A model generated the notes under the pieces. That model saw only the letters and a program-made list of their open reading frames with translations. It was not told the origin of the DNA and made no database searches. Position numbers and translations under genes: made by a program. Positions 13,666 through 23,430 of a stretch of 64,000 nucleotides of DNA are shown here, piece by piece. The stretch is from positions 1,984,001-2,048,000 of the forward strand of contig NZ_JAVDYJ010000001.1 of the NCBI RefSeq assembly GCF_031458395.1, read 5' to 3'. How positions within the stretch are numbered: position 1 is the first letter of the stretch; each line of letters starts with the position of its first letter. The DNA is from Enteractinococcus fodinae (lineage in GTDB: Bacteria > Actinomycetota > Actinomycetes > Actinomycetales > Micrococcaceae).

Positions 13666-16450
13666 CTAGCGAAGACCGTTGATGGCCTTTGCGTAGAGCT
13701 GGAATAACCGCTCAACGATAACCTTCTCATCCTCGCCTGGTTCTATTTCGTAGGCTTGTTCTACTGCCGCATCGAGGGCCTGGTGTGCTGCGGTGAGTTC
13801 TGGGTAGAGCCACTCATGGTCGGGGTCGTACATCTGCGCAATCGTGGCATCCGAATACACCTCGCGTGCATCCAGCACCGCTTGAGCGCGCTCTGCGATT
13901 TCACATTCTTGGTCTCTGGTGACCTGTGGCCAGACGAAGTTGTTATAGACAATGCCAGCGGAATACCGGAATCGGCCCTCAAGTCTCCCTGCCACAGATT
14001 GCATCCACGCATTGTGGAGACGAGATTGCAAGACGCCAAAATGGAAATACGACGCATCTGGAACCAGGAACACCAGGTCACTACAAAAATCGTTGGGTCC
14101 CACCATTCCCACTGGTATGTATCGTCGCCGTTCAGATGACACTTTCGGCATCAGTAAAGAATTTCCTTTAGGTAGGTTCTCTACGTGAAACCTCGTGGGA
14201 GTGGTTGCGAGTTTCTGAGTGGGCGCACTCTTACTGGCAAGCCGCAGTTCTCTTACCTTGTGCACACGTTCTAGTGCATGCGGCATGGCTCGGAGTTCTG
14301 TTGGTGTTGCTTCGCCTAGCCATAGCACCCAGCGTTCGATGCCTTTGATGAATTCTTGGGAGCCGTGCCAGCGGTGAAAGAACTTTTCAGCCGCGGGTTC
14401 CAACGCTAGGAATTCCTCTTTTTCAGCGGGTGTGAACAGGTAATTTCCGCCGTCGATGGGCTTATTTCCAATCCCCATCTCGGGGACCGCGCTTAATGGT
14501 TTGTTGCGGTTCCAGACGAACACCTGGGGTGCGTCTTTGAGGTAGGCGTTGATGCGTTCGGGGTGGGAGACTTCGGGTTCCCCGTTGATGTCTGGGTAAT
14601 GATAGAGGGTCTTTTGTCCACCGAGTTTAGAGAATCCCACGATCACACAATATACAGCGGCGGGGTCGTTGCTTTCGTTGGCCCAGCGGAAGGTGTCGTG
14701 GGCGAAGTCGATGCGGATGCCGTGTTCGTAAATAGGATGCCAGATGTTAGCGACCTGTGCCCCCTGGCAGATTGAGTTCGTGGAGACAAACGCTGCCCGG
14801 ATTTTATGATCGCTCATGTAGGTGACGGCCTTGGCGTACCAGGCCGCAACATAGTCGATATTTCCGAGGTTGCGGGTAGCACCGATTGCTTCAAAAGCTG
14901 TTTTGATTTCTGCTTTTTGTGCTGCTGATTGGTTCCGCGCGCCAAGGAATGGCGGGTTGCCAATAATATAGTCACATTCCTCGGGTGGGAGGACTTCTGA
15001 CCACTCGGTTTGTAGGGCATTGCCTTGGATGATGCGACTGCCTTCACTCAGCGGCAGGGACTCAATCGTGCGAGTCACGATCATCTCAGTTTCTAGGTTG
15101 GCTTGCAGCTCGGCAATCCACAGCGCGGTGCCAGCAACTGAGACGGCAAAGTCATTAATCTCTAGCCCATAGAACTGATCCAGGGACACTTTGATCGGGC
15201 TAATATCTAGGTCATCGAACGCCACGGAGGTCTGACCGTGGGTGAGTTCGGAAATGACTTTGTTTTCCAACCGACGCAATGACAAATAGGTTTCGGTCAA
15301 AAAATCGCAGAGTGGCCAGCTTGTCTTGGTAGCGGCGCAGGTTGTTGCGGCGCTTGATTGCCCCGACGCCCGTTTCATTGATAATGTCTTCAAGTTCTTG
15401 GGTGAGGTCATCCAAAAATGCGGGGTCAATGACCCGGTGGATATTTTCGGGGCTGGTGTAGTGCATGCCCCCGGCATGGCGGGTTTCCGGGTTCAGGGTG
15501 GACTCAAACACACCACCAAAAATCGTGGGGGAAATCGTCGACCAGTCGGTGCTAGCGGAGACTTCATGCAGCAACAAGTCCACGATCTCATCGGTGAACT
15601 GTGGAATATCCACGGCATGGTCGGCAAAGAGTCCCCCGTTGACGTAGGGGAAGGATTTGAGGTGATCGCTAGCGTACGGGTCCCGGTCGGCTGGTGCAGT
15701 ATCCAGATACAAAAACAGTTCACGCAAGGCCACCCGGACCTGTCGGGCAGGTAAGCCACTAAGGTAGTCATAGAACGAGCGACGTTCAAACACGCCAGCA
15801 TCTTCGGCAAACAAACAGAACACCAAGCGCACACACAACACGTTGAGACTGTGCTGGGCTTCGGGTGATTCCGGGTCGAGATACTGCTCGCGCAGCATGT
15901 CATAGAGCTTGCCAATCAGATACCCAGCGTTGACCGAGACAGTTTTTTCGCGTTTACGGCGGTCGGCTTTGGGATCGACTAAGAAATCTAACAGGTGCAG
16001 TTGTTGGGGCAGCTCATCGAGCGTGAACGCCACGTAGTTATGCTCGGGGTACGGTTCCTCAGCAAGGTCGTGGATTCTGAACTCATAGAAATTCGACACA
16101 ATGATGGTGTCGGGGCGCTGCACATTGGGCTGGGCATCGGCGTACCGCTTGGCCTGTTGGAACGGCGTGACCGGTTCATTCTGGCGAATCTCTGGTTTAT
16201 CCAGATCAACGCCTAAGGACTTCTGTTCGATAAAGGTCTTCGCATCCACCACAATCGCATCAATATACCCACGTGAGACGGTGGACTGTTCGAACATCAC
16301 GTTAGTGGTGGCATCATCCATCCCCAGAACATTGGTCAGCATATCCAGCCAGAATTTATGCGTATCACCTTTTTCGTAGCCGAGACCCTTCCACCGCTGC
16401 ACAAACTCCCGGGCCGCAACCACACGCTGCGCCTGACTTACTTTAACCAT
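13666..16450 (-). pseudogene. MmeI-like (type IIL) restriction-modification protein, frameshifted at the SAM-binding motif
   Basis: Two overlapping frames make one gene. The 5' part (16450 to about 15300) has an N-terminal MmeI-type nuclease region with GYIDAIVVDAKTFIEQKSLG (D...ExK), the helical spacer, and ends LATLRFFD. The 3' part (about 15303 to 13666) resumes as FLTETYLSLRR and has motif IV as DYIIGNPPFLGAR, then target-recognition and C-terminal regions. The residues expected between them, PACGSGN of SAM-binding motif I, are missing. The join is a single TTTTTTGACC (minus strand, 15304-15295). Restoring a 29-base segment would give 2,814 bases, 937 residues, close to family size. Both cleavage and methylation should be lost because the methyltransferase core is split. 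A sequencing or assembly error cannot be excluded. Confidence 0.85.
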
Positions 16451-16834
16451 GCGCTTAGTATCCCATACAGCGATAGGCTCGCTGCCTGTGTACCTAAGAA
16501 TGTTTCTGTTATTTAAGCGCCTTTAACGGTCAAGAGCGCATCCCAGCGAATGGCATAGTAAAAGTAAGACCACCAACTGAAATTACGAAGTGCTGCCATA
16601 CAATTCACCGATACTCCCCCGGGCGGCGATCCCTATACTAAGGATAGCTAGCCTGCCGCCGGGCTGCGATAATTCTAGTGACTCGGAGTCTGGAACATCG
16701 GTTGCGCTCCAACGGGTCGCAGGCCGTGCCATTGGTGCCCCGCCAGACATACCGGGCACCCTGCTTCGTGTCGAAAACCGCTATTCGTGGCTTGGGCAGT
16801 AGCAAGAGAAGAGCCCCTCCACGTATCAACTAAT
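16451..16834. other. Gene-free stretch upstream of the restriction-modification gene
   Basis: About 380 bases with no frame I can support on either strand. It should hold the promoter of the leftward restriction-modification gene just before 16450; I cannot pick a clear -35/-10 pair. The rest looks like decayed DNA continuous with the thioesterase remnant that follows. Confidence 0.4.
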
Positions 16835-18920: not shown

Positions 18921-21900
18921 GTGACTCAAGTTTGGCTCATCCGGAACGATACACTCAGTCAGGAACTCGAAGAAGGCGGTTTCATCTCCATCGGGTGGGA
19001 TGGGACCGGGGACCTCGACCGAAGATCATTAGAAATTGAAGATCTCATCGCTGACCTAGGTCGGTTAAACCCCGAGAGCTCCTTGGGCACTCTACGGGCC
19101 TGGGCCTATACCTTGTTGCGGTTTCGCGACGGCATCGCTGAAGATGACATCGTCGTGGGACCGTATAGCGAAAGCAGATATCTACGGATCGGCTACGTGA
19201 CGGGTCCGTACTATTACGAAGCTGGGGCTCAAACTCATCGCCATCGCATCCCGGTGAAGTGGACTGTTAGCGACTTCCCAAAGGACGCATTACCATCTAA
19301 CGTCCAAAATGGGCTACGAAATATCTCCACTCTCTCACGCATACGACAAGAACCCGAGTTATTTCAAGAACTTGCCCACGACCAGGCTAAGCTCGATGAG
19401 CTCCAACAAGCCGGTCAAGAAAGCGCAGAGCAACATCGTGCTCGAAATATCTGGCTGGTCGGCTCAATGATAAATAATGAGGACAAAACTGCAGATTTCG
19501 TAAATAGCGGCTACTGGGCCCTTAGTGACGGAGTACCTGGCCGGGCGCAGGAAATGGTCCCCGGCGATCGAATCGCTATCAAAGCTACCACCACGAAGAA
19601 AAGGGATTTACCGTTCGAAAACTACGGCCTGCCGGTGTCGACAATGATCATCAAGGCACGGGGCATGGTGCAGGCGGTTGAATCAGACCGCATCATTGTG
19701 GATTGGGATCACGCTTTCCGAGAGCGTGTTTGGTACTTTTTCACCCATCGACATGCCATATGGCGACTGAACCAGGATCATCACTGGGCGCCGCACCTTG
19801 AGCGTTTCATCTTTGACGACGAGCCTCAAGATTATGAAGCCTTCCTCAATTCCGAGTTCTGGCGGCGCTACAGAGACGAGGGAGCGAAGCGTGCTCGCGA
19901 GGACAAGGTCCGCCACCCCTCTTATCGCAAAGCAAACCCCACCGCAGACCCGGTATACGACGCGGCACAGGCTTGGAAGAATGCTGTCATTGAAGGGCAG
20001 TCCCTATTTTCCGGCGAATCGTTGGACTATAAAGAAGCCACTACCGGCTTTATCGAGTATTTCGTTAACCGACCGGATGCCGGCGAGGGAACATTCCTGG
20101 GCAAACTCCAGACACAGTTAGCGCCAGCTCCTACCTCAACGGTTCAACTGGCGGCCGAGCTCATGTTTATCTACACGCTGCCGCTACAACCAGGCAGCAT
20201 GAAGCAAACAACCAAGATTTCCCACGTGAACACCATCCTTGGCTGGCGGGACGATAGCTCGCCGATGCCAGATGCCTTGGAAACGAGCCTGCGAGCGGGC
20301 ATCATTCGAGTCGGTACCGCCTTTCACACATTTCGTTGGGCGATATTCCAATACTTAGTACATCTCATGCATGAGCTCGCCTCCCAGTCATTTGACGAAC
20401 GCGACCATGCACTCAATGACTGGGAGGCCTTCCAGGAACTGCTCGACGGCATACATGTTCAGGGAGCCCAGTCGATGCGACTGATCCTGGAACATCTTTT
20501 CTTCCCGGATCGAGCTCTACTGAATGCCAGCACGGCTGATCGCCAGCGTATGAGTATTGCTTTTAGTGAGTTTCTTGAAAAAGACGGCGACGTCAATGAC
20601 CTCATCCAGTTCCTAGAGCCAAACATTCAGTACGGTGACAGGTACGAGGTCAATGTATATGCTGCGCCCTACCGATCCCAATGGCTCGGGATAGGAGACG
20701 GCCTTACTACATGGTCCGCTTGGGCGTCGCTCATCTTGGAGGAATCCGAGCTACTGACGGATGAGGAGCCAGCTACACAGGCTCAAGAACTTACCCCGGA
20801 TAATCTTCCAAGAATCACTGCGCCACTCGAGGAACTTCACAGCGACGCGTCGAAGGCACTGCTCGACTGGTTCCAAGCTGATCACAATCGGGGCCTCAAA
20901 GCACTGGCTGAATTACGTGACACAGAGACTAGCGCAGCGATAGATCACCTTCACCAGCAGACCGGTTTCGATGGACCGAGCTCAGAATTTCTCGAAGCAG
21001 CCACCGGACTCCTCAGCCAAATCGATGAGACGGTGCCGAAGTATTATCGGGCCTCCGTCCGTCCCCTCCTCATGGAGCTGTGTTCGCTCACCATCAGCCC
21101 AGAGGCTTCACCGGGTGAACTCTTCATGTCACTTCGGGAAGCCATGGAATCACTCCGGTCGGGATTGTTCTACCGCGACGGAATCGAATTGAATGTGCCG
21201 GTACTGGCCGCGCTCGCGCAACAGGTGATTTCTTTAGACCTGGGTGCTACCGATTGGGACCAAGCCACCCGAGCAGCATTTGCTGACTGGCGCGCTGGAT
21301 TGCCAAGTGTCTCTCCGGATGAACTCGCCACGGAGCCCCAGTCCCTAAACGATACTGAGCCGACTCCCCCACGAGAAGCTCGGACCAAGACGATCCCTGC
21401 CACTCTCGATGCGCTTGCTCAGCGGCTGACGTTTGTCACCGATGAGAGTAACGAATGGTTGCGTGTCACCCAGTCATTACTATGGCAAAAACGCCAGATC
21501 ATCTTCCAGGGACCTCCGGGAACCGGTAAAACATTTCTTGCACGCCAACTCGCCGAGTTCCTGACACAGGACCCTGCACGAGTCACACTGGTGCAGTTCC
21601 ATCCCGCGACCACCTACGAAGATTTCGTGCAAGGGCTCCGGCCCGAAACAGGAACATCTGGCGCATTCGCACTCCGCAACGGTCCGCTGCTTGAAGCCGC
21701 AAAACGAGCCGAGCAGGAGCCACATGCCACTCACGTGATGATCATTGATGAGATCAACCGCGCCAACCTTCCCGCGGTCTTTGGTGAGTTGTATTTCCTC
21801 CTGGAGTATAGAAACGAAGAGGTCACCCTGAATTACGGGGACAGATTCAAACTTCCCGAGAACTTACTGCTCATCGGTACGATGAATACAGCTGATCGGT

Positions 21901-22268
21901 CCATTGCAGCCATCGACTCCGCTCTTCGGCGCCGGTTTTTCATCCGGGATCTGCGCCCGGAAGAAGTGCCCATGAACGATGTGCTCGATCAACATCTGGA
22001 CCAATACGCTCCTGATCTCAAATGGATGGTCAAGCTCCTGGAGCGCGCCAACGAACTGATCGGCGATCAGGACCAAAGCATTGGGCCCAGCCATTTCCTG
22101 TTGGGCGACGATCTCACTGAAGAAACAGCACGTCAGGCATGGAAGTTCACCGTCATGCCGACTCTTCGTGAGCACTTCTACGGGCAATCAGGGCGATTAG
22201 ACGAGCTCACATTCGACCAGTTGAGAGCTTATGCACTCACCGGTGGTGTCGATGCTGCAGCTGACTGA
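18921..22268 (+). CDS. mcrB: McrB-type AAA+ GTPase/ATPase with two N-terminal PUA/EVE-like domains
   Basis: A 1,115-residue motor subunit of a McrBC-type restriction system. Residues 1-115 (VWLIRNDTLSQELEEGGFIS, GDLDRRS, GPYYYEAG, IPVKW) resemble the N-terminal domain of some Mrr-like restriction proteins. Residues 170-320 (GDRIAIKATTTKKRDLPF, GMVQAVESDRIIVDWDH, WYFFTHRHAIW) look like a second PUA/EVE-type modified-base reader. A long helical region follows (about 330-850). The AAA+ domain has Walker A GPPGTGKT (864-871), Walker B MIIDEINRAN (D943/E944) and NTADRSIAAIDSALRRRF (989 on), the McrB signature. Start GTG behind GGAAGGG. It overlaps mcrC by 17 bases. The readers should select modified DNA, for example hydroxymethylated or glucosylated phage bases; the target is unknown. 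Confidence 0.9.
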   Translation: MTQVWLIRNDTLSQELEEGGFISIGWDGTGDLDRRSLEIEDLIADLGRLNPESSLGTLRAWAYTLLRFRDGIAEDDIVVGPYSESRYLRIGYVTGPYYYEAGAQTHRHRIPVKWTVSDFPKDALPSNVQNGLRNISTLSRIRQEPELFQELAHDQAKLDELQQAGQESAEQHRARNIWLVGSMINNEDKTADFVNSGYWALSDGVPGRAQEMVPGDRIAIKATTTKKRDLPFENYGLPVSTMIIKARGMVQAVESDRIIVDWDHAFRERVWYFFTHRHAIWRLNQDHHWAPHLERFIFDDEPQDYEAFLNSEFWRRYRDEGAKRAREDKVRHPSYRKANPTADPVYDAAQAWKNAVIEGQSLFSGESLDYKEATTGFIEYFVNRPDAGEGTFLGKLQTQLAPAPTSTVQLAAELMFIYTLPLQPGSMKQTTKISHVNTILGWRDDSSPMPDALETSLRAGIIRVGTAFHTFRWAIFQYLVHLMHELASQSFDERDHALNDWEAFQELLDGIHVQGAQSMRLILEHLFFPDRALLNASTADRQRMSIAFSEFLEKDGDVNDLIQFLEPNIQYGDRYEVNVYAAPYRSQWLGIGDGLTTWSAWASLILEESELLTDEEPATQAQELTPDNLPRITAPLEELHSDASKALLDWFQADHNRGLKALAELRDTETSAAIDHLHQQTGFDGPSSEFLEAATGLLSQIDETVPKYYRASVRPLLMELCSLTISPEASPGELFMSLREAMESLRSGLFYRDGIELNVPVLAALAQQVISLDLGATDWDQATRAAFADWRAGLPSVSPDELATEPQSLNDTEPTPPREARTKTIPATLDALAQRLTFVTDESNEWLRVTQSLLWQKRQIIFQGPPGTGKTFLARQLAEFLTQDPARVTLVQFHPATTYEDFVQGLRPETGTSGAFALRNGPLLEAAKRAEQEPHATHVMIIDEINRANLPAVFGELYFLLEYRNEEVTLNYGDRFKLPENLLLIGTMNTADRSIAAIDSALRRRFFIRDLRPEEVPMNDVLDQHLDQYAPDLKWMVKLLERANELIGDQDQSIGPSHFLLGDDLTEETARQAWKFTVMPTLREHFYGQSGRLDELTFDQLRAYALTGGVDAAAD

Positions 22269-23430
22269 GCACAGCCGCAGCGAACCTGTAGCGCTCACTG
22301 TCGTCCAGCGAGAAAAGCTGCGTGAATGGTTTCAGGCAGCTTTCGTGCCGGCCGATAACGGTCTGCTTCATGTGATCCCCGGTTCGCGGGTAGGTGGCGC
22401 AGTAATCGACGGATTGAAGGTCTCTGTCGCGCCCAAACTCCCGATTCATCGCTTGCTCACGTTGATATCGGAAATAGCCGATCCCTACGGTTGGCTCGAA
22501 GCAGAGGCAGCCACTACGACAAGACAGGATTTGGACGACGCTGTTGTTGCGCTCTTCATTCAGTCTTGCCATCGCACCTTCGAACGCGGAATGCACCGTG
22601 CCTACCGGCGCGAACGGCAACGACTGAACGTGATCCGCGGAAAGCTCCTCGTCCCGCAAACGCTGAGACAGGTTGGGCCCGTCCCGGTAACGGTCGAAAC
22701 GGATGTGTTTGACGATGACACACCCGAAAACCAGGTGCTCGCAGCCGCTCTGCGACAAGTGCGAGCCACTCCCAGCCTGTCGGATCACACCCGACAACAA
22801 GCCCACCACGTCTTGCGGGATGTCCGGCACGTCGCGCCATTGCGCGACCCACTAGCCACCGCCAAGAATATTGTGTGGACCCGGCACAACCAGTGGTATC
22901 AGCAGGCCATTTCACTAGCAATGCTGCTGTTATCGTTTGGACGAGTAAGCGCCGAGCTCGGCGAGGAGACGCTCCCGGGATTCGTCATCGACATGCCAAA
23001 AGTGATCGAACAATGGGTCCGGGTAACGCTACGACGTGCCTGGGGTGTCGACGAAGCGGAGATGCAGGATAGCTGGAAAGGTGCCCTCTGGCTTGATGAG
23101 GCTCGCCGGGTGGAATTACAACCGGATCTGGCTATCCGGCGCAACGGAGCCTGGTCCTTCGTGGGAGACGTCAAGTACAAAATCCTTGGATCCAGTTCAA
23201 GACGAGGCTCTGGACCAGATCGCAACGACATCTACCAAATGCTCGCCTACCTCACTGCAACAGGGCTCTCAGAGGGGACTTTGATCTATGCGGGTGTGGA
23301 CGGTATAGATCAAAAGATCACAGTCCCCGAAGCAGACAAGACCGTTCACCTCGTGACTGTGAACCTCGGGGCATACGAGGCCCGAAACCTACTCATCGGA
23401 AAGCTCGGCGCTCAATCCCCAAATGGATAA
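22252..23430 (+). CDS. mcrC: McrC-type nuclease subunit of the McrBC system
   Basis: A 392-residue protein of the McrC family. The N-terminal region binds the McrB hexamer; the C-terminal PD-(D/E)xK nuclease core is visible as LQPDLAIRR (D292), then VGDVKYK (D306, K308) and NDIYQMLAYL. The catalytic set therefore looks intact. The ATG at 22252 has GGTGG upstream and places the usual LxLTEHxR opening at the N-terminus; ATG 22231 is in frame and would enlarge the overlap with mcrB. Together with McrB it should cleave DNA between recognised modified sites, driven by nucleotide hydrolysis. Confidence 0.9.
   Translation: MLQLTEHSRSEPVALTVVQREKLREWFQAAFVPADNGLLHVIPGSRVGGAVIDGLKVSVAPKLPIHRLLTLISEIADPYGWLEAEAATTTRQDLDDAVVALFIQSCHRTFERGMHRAYRRERQRLNVIRGKLLVPQTLRQVGPVPVTVETDVFDDDTPENQVLAAALRQVRATPSLSDHTRQQAHHVLRDVRHVAPLRDPLATAKNIVWTRHNQWYQQAISLAMLLLSFGRVSAELGEETLPGFVIDMPKVIEQWVRVTLRRAWGVDEAEMQDSWKGALWLDEARRVELQPDLAIRRNGAWSFVGDVKYKILGSSSRRGSGPDRNDIYQMLAYLTATGLSEGTLIYAGVDGIDQKITVPEADKTVHLVTVNLGAYEARNLLIGKLGAQSPNG

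Follow-up and report, generated by a model that had tools for sequence, protein, structure and literature searches.

An MmeI-like restriction-modification gene of Enteractinococcus fodinae, very probably killed in the recent past by a 29-base deletion at SAM motif I

The window analysed here is a stretch of 64,000 nucleotides from Enteractinococcus fodinae. On its minus strand, at 16450..13666, two overlapping frames together encode one MmeI-like (Type IIL) restriction-modification enzyme (Table 1). The upstream ORF (15212..16450) has 412 residues, 385 of them in frame with an orthologue from the same genus, G001. A first-pass annotation, made from the letters of the stretch, had ended this frame at LATLRFFD; actually it continues for 27 residues out of frame. 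The downstream frame does restart at FLTETYLSLRR, as that annotation had it, and extends to 13666. The break between ...LATLRFFD and FLTETYLSLRR falls at the position of SAM motif I.

Table 1. Features of the broken gene (window positions) and of the mobile element found in relatives (contig positions)
Feature	Location	Strand	Length	Remarks
Gene, 5' part	15296..16450	(-)	385 codons	MmeI_N nuclease, MmeI_hel spacer, methyltransferase domain start to ...LATLRFFD
Out-of-frame tail of upstream ORF	15212..15295	(-)	27 codons + stop	closes the 412-aa ORF
Deletion junction	15295..15304	(-)		lone TTTTTTGACC; the orthologue's 29 bases are missing here
Gene, 3' part	13666..15303	(-)	545 codons + stop	methyltransferase domain without motif I, TRD, C-terminal domain
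Putative nuclease catalytic residues D64...E75-x-K77 (YIDAIVVDAKTFIEQK)	16220..16261	(-)		retained; from translation
Motif IV NPPF	14947..14958	(-)		retained; from sequence
Element copy, G579	L213:2284-10136		about 7.9 kb	GA both sides
Element copy, G579	L246:1355-11654		about 10.3 kb	GA both sides
Element copy, G746	L244:3420-15372		about 12 kb	GA both sides; two recombinase frames inside
Element copy, G639	L214:1474-7728		about 6.3 kb	left flank not recognised as methyltransferase
Single element end, G746	L190:3391
Single element end, G019	L148:4654
Single element end	L037:2976

The domain content is that of a complete enzyme distributed over two frames. Pfam finds the nuclease domain MmeI_N (E=8e-31) and the helical spacer MmeI_hel (E=5e-20) in the upstream frame, both above cut-off; the downstream frame holds MmeI_Mtase (E=3e-75, profile 32-258 of 259), MmeI_TRD (E=2e-70) and MmeI_C (E=3e-14). 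PADLOC calls both parts Type IIG REase-MTase, and NCBIfam has a name for neither. Residues D64, E75 and K77 of the upstream frame presumably play the PD-(D/E)xK role. The gamma-class adenine methyltransferase is represented by its domain and by NPPF, with motif I missing; the TRD and C-terminal domain are both encoded, in a frame that differs from that of the nuclease. Judged from its sequence, the locus is the remnant of an MmeI-like Type IIL single-chain enzyme rather than a working one.

A second restriction-type system lies a few genes away; its components are a McrB-like AAA protein (18921-22268, plus strand; 1,115 aa) and a McrC-like protein (22231-23430, plus strand). Just upstream of the broken gene, at 16505-16532 on the minus strand, homology to G001 begins; in G001 this is where a UmuC-like polymerase gene ends (by eye), and the window seems to retain just the last codons of that gene.

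The nature of the lesion emerges from the intact orthologue. The downstream part has matches in five of nine genus genomes, the window genome included; that of G001 (locus L005) is the closest at 83% identity, and a homologue in Kocuria salsicia (L038) stands at about 63%. Both have an intact motif I, unlike the window gene. Two neighbours, a copper ATPase and another gene paired by eye, occur in both the window and G001, and the place of the gene is therefore orthologous; the intervening genes differ. At the DNA level the two are 81% identical across 2,878 alignment columns, and the 5' part can be aligned codon by codon. Of the 41 gap columns, 29 form a single gap in the window gene at motif I; the rest make up eight gaps of 1-2 bases, four per side, at 14263-13972, where the window frame is open. 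With 29 bases added, the 2,785-base window gene reaches 2,814 bases and 937 aa, as the first-pass annotation had calculated, close to the MmeI-like length; the G001 protein has 935 aa and the same start. In the plasmid collection, searched at nucleotide level, there were partial matches alone, in nine records, none covering 80%.

The gap and the Pfam domain order bear out the earlier diagnosis of an MmeI-like gene inactivated at motif I; its account of flanking repeats survives in part. On the minus strand the junction reads ...CTGCGATTTTTTGACCGAAACC..., with the single TTTTTTGACC that the annotation had noted. This 10-mer lies at 15304..15295, and the 2.93-Mb genome has three exact copies in all (reversed control pattern: six). 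The proposal was that the ancestor carried two full copies. Short homology at the deletion ends is indeed found; the second full copy does not appear in the intact relative, where TTTTTTGACC stands upstream and the downstream place matches the surviving junction in TGACC only. Those five bases of homology would suffice to yield the observed junction.

Very probably, then, the locus holds an MmeI-like Type IIL gene that died recently, through a 29-base deletion between short homologies. The ancestor would have had short homologous stretches across motif I (five bases, TGACC, if it was like G001); replication slippage or end joining between them could have lost the 29 bases, removing the SAM motif I codons and shifting the frame. 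The upstream fragment, which ends soon after the spacer, would not methylate, and the downstream fragment, or even a read-through product, would do no better, as it has no SAM-binding loop. A one-off loss, offered earlier as the alternative to a switch, fits such a deletion. By a rough estimate, a random 29-base deletion in a gene of this length would touch motif I, which spans 11 codons, in about 2% of cases; the position alone is therefore suggestive only.

Several measures bear on the age of the loss. Between the window and G001, omega is 0.055 in the N part, 0.059 in the methyltransferase part and 0.139 in the TRD plus C-terminus, and 0.112 in the neighbouring copper ATPase, taken as control. 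With four usable outgroups, of five intended, to assign changes to lineages, residues changed only in the window or only in G001 number 9 vs 6 in the upstream part and 25 vs 32 in the downstream part; a further 43 differences (9 and 34, respectively) are undecided. By these figures selection was strong until recently, with no clear excess of changes on the window branch. As there is no sign of decay besides the deletion, the loss is probably recent. A long-standing pseudogene was considered and finds no support in omega or the lineage counts.

Without motif I, methylation should be impossible, and the enzyme is almost certainly dead. MmeI-type cleavage relies on the same SAM-dependent chain as methylation; restriction would therefore have been lost along with modification, and a loss of both together would be harmless to the cell. 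The gene thus stands as one more recently lost restriction-modification gene and a clean natural motif-I knock-out, useful in that its genus also provides an intact orthologue. Slippage of +1 in the T6 run was also considered as a way to restore the gene; by reasoning, the product would still have no motif I.

One might instead suppose that the strain's gene is intact and that the gap is a sequencing or assembly error. The sequence comes from a single assembly, and the coding sequence is otherwise open and strongly constrained. Against this, homopolymer errors do not typically take out 29 bases cleanly between homologous ends, and the genome was assembled as a single contig; we regard an error as improbable.

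Another perspective looks beyond the window, to the frequency with which relatives are broken at the same point. The full-length G001 protein, in which motif I occupies query residues 382-392 of 934, was searched against 395 family genomes and 396 order genomes (overlapping sets), with matches in 101 and 73, respectively; at most two candidates were scored per genome. Breaks at motif I occur in the window; in G019, G048 and G093, which belong to one genus and count as one; in G289, G604, G674 and G746; and at a second locus of G579. These seven loci (six without the window), together with an additional MmeI-like copy broken at motif I in Zimmermannella bifida (L037), compare with about 16 interrupted copies broken elsewhere, a figure tallied by eye in which not every item is confirmed as a true break. 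By chance, well under one break would be expected within 11 of 934 residues. The list was made by hand and compiled after the effect had been noticed; the tally of breaks elsewhere omits contig-edge pieces, short fragments and alignments that divergence had trimmed. Two further arrangements are of note. In G040, G249 and G342, all of one genus, MmeI-like genes are divided close to query residue 555-560, which may represent a natural two-gene arrangement; and in G604 a McrBC pair (L184:6264-9825) directly follows the motif-I break.

Motif I is in this sense a recurrent breakpoint of the MmeI-like family, and several of the relatives' breaks come from one mobile element. L037 and G746 have in common a stretch of about 195 bases that directly precedes motif I, despite the divergence of their MmeI-like parts (65% and about 35% identity, respectively, to that of the window). 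The right end was found at seven places, five with the junction end and two partial, in four of 47 genomes of G746's family. As a 25-base pattern with up to three mismatches, it occurs at 10 places in six of the 396 order genomes (reversed control: 0). Coding sequence after the right end begins DPACGCG (twice), DPTCGTGG, DPTVGTGG, DPGAGSG or EPFLGTG; three other right ends adjoin another copy's left end, and one adjoins unrelated DNA. Five right ends adjoin methyltransferases confirmed by Pfam (MmeI_Mtase two, N6_Mtase two, Eco57I one); the EPFLGTG piece resembles motif I in sequence and has no Pfam match. In the split HsdM of G579, the upstream piece covers N6_Mtase 3-52 and the downstream piece 52-310; the gene is therefore split at one profile position. 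The left end follows N-terminal gene parts in G019, G048 and G093. A different left end is shared at motif I by MmeI-like genes of G289 (L151 contig end) and G674 (L185:7559); it too falls within the codons of the motif, six bases further along than the first type. Copies followed from end to end measure about 6 to 12 kb and are flanked by GA on both sides, and the two ends of the element contain an imperfect inverted copy around GGATACAA. The element end was unmatched in plasmids, phages and viral contigs (the last by exact pattern).

The probable agent of integration is best seen in G746, where the 12-kb copy includes tandem serine recombinases, one of them a 527-aa protein with Resolvase, Recombinase and zinc-ribbon domains. 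PF07508 matches occur in five of 10 genomes examined. In G019 a tandem recombinase pair is located some 8 kb away from the left end, in a stretch where the right end was not found. The two G579 copies and the G639 copy contain no recombinase match, and no PF07508 match at all occurs in G093, G604 and G674. For one element family, then, we infer integration by a serine recombinase; for the other motif-I breaks it is unproven. The genes whose motif I adjoins the element ends are MmeI-like, HsdM-like and Eco57I-like. If such targeting holds, it predicts which of the host's defence genes are silenced by elements of this kind.

Could the window deletion be the scar of such an element, which entered motif I and was then lost imprecisely? 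The recurrent insertion point in relatives invites the idea, which is nevertheless very unlikely for this gene. Neither the window genome nor G001 has a PF07508 recombinase; the right end is missing from the window genome at up to three mismatches; and no foreign bases stand at the window junction. A 15-base end core gave only two-mismatch sites in the window genome, 16 vs 5 for the control, none better, and these are read as background although above control. The search covered the first element end type rather than the left end of G289 and G674. With neither recombinase nor right end in the window genome, the relatives' element does not explain the deletion; the junction has no element ends, and the genome no PF07508 gene, such as a motif-I-targeting serine-recombinase element would bring. 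A broader form of the idea would make the SAM motif I codons of DNA adenine methyltransferases an integration site used widely by recombinase elements, which would split and silence restriction-modification genes of several classes in this order, with the window deletion one more product of breakage there, such as an element's scar; taken as a whole, this too is very unlikely. That the window break shares its place with the relatives' breaks is probably coincidence plus local homology, although the break falls where relatives are often interrupted, so that pure chance is not certain.

Finally, the direct repeats might make a reversible or high-frequency on/off switch around motif I, as the first-pass annotation suggested. 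Short homology does lie at both deletion ends, and phase variation is known in other Type IIG enzymes, including one of Campylobacter jejuni (PMC4889913). The second full TTTTTTGACC is, however, missing from the intact G001 orthologue. Nor do relatives keep such repeats. The survey took 122 distinct intact homologues whose ORFs measure 850-1150 aa and whose motif I is recognisable; in these, the longest exact direct repeat able to delete motif I, at offsets 18-39, was of 3 bases in 16 genes, 4 in 51, 5 in 33, 6 in 16 and 7 in six, so that none has a repeat of at least 8 bases. Intact relatives without the flanking repeats were what the earlier proposal had itself named as counting against it, and the survey comes close to that outcome. 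The mean at motif I (4.55) slightly exceeds that at 40 random places per gene (4.09), where repeats reach 11 bases; at offset 29 the means are 2.81 and 1.82. The peptide FFD..NFLT makes short repeats slightly commoner than background, which is far from a conserved switch, and neither a repeat tract nor long direct repeats are kept in relatives. Moreover, the deleted bases are unique; slippage would therefore be unable to undo the loss, and a donor copy would be needed to restore them. No second MmeI-like copy was found in the window's own genome with either the downstream part or the full-length G001 protein as query. A switch is thus extremely doubtful, and the inactivation looks like an ordinary, recent, one-off event.

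Some known systems invite comparison. The Campylobacter jejuni Type IIG gene reportedly switches off by a frame change through slippage in a repeat tract; it and the window gene are each a Type IIG enzyme stopped by a frame change, but the window gene has lost unique bases, and its break is not bordered by any long repeat. For the relatives' elements, the closest parallel is with streptococcal Tn1806-like ICEs, which carry serine-integrase triplets and integrate inside methyltransferase genes (hsdM, snf2-type and Eco57I-type; PMC4701971, PMC12942858). Several serine integrases and integration into methyltransferase genes are common to both; according to the same papers, the ICEs are of 49-72 kb, belong to streptococci and have 4-bp repeats, whereas the elements described here, which occur in relatives and not in the window, are of ~6 to 12 kb with GA on both sides. 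A limited literature search found no actinomycete reports of such methyltransferase targeting, which is weak evidence of absence. The window gene itself is most like MmeI and the Type IIL enzymes: it shares their five Pfam domains and the order of these, the NPPF motif IV whose role in MmeI is described in PMC4833311, and a similar length once 29 bases are added. It differs where MmeI has a motif I of the FDPACGxGxFL type, its AdoMet-binding site according to PMC4833311; in the window gene that motif is deleted and the frame is broken.
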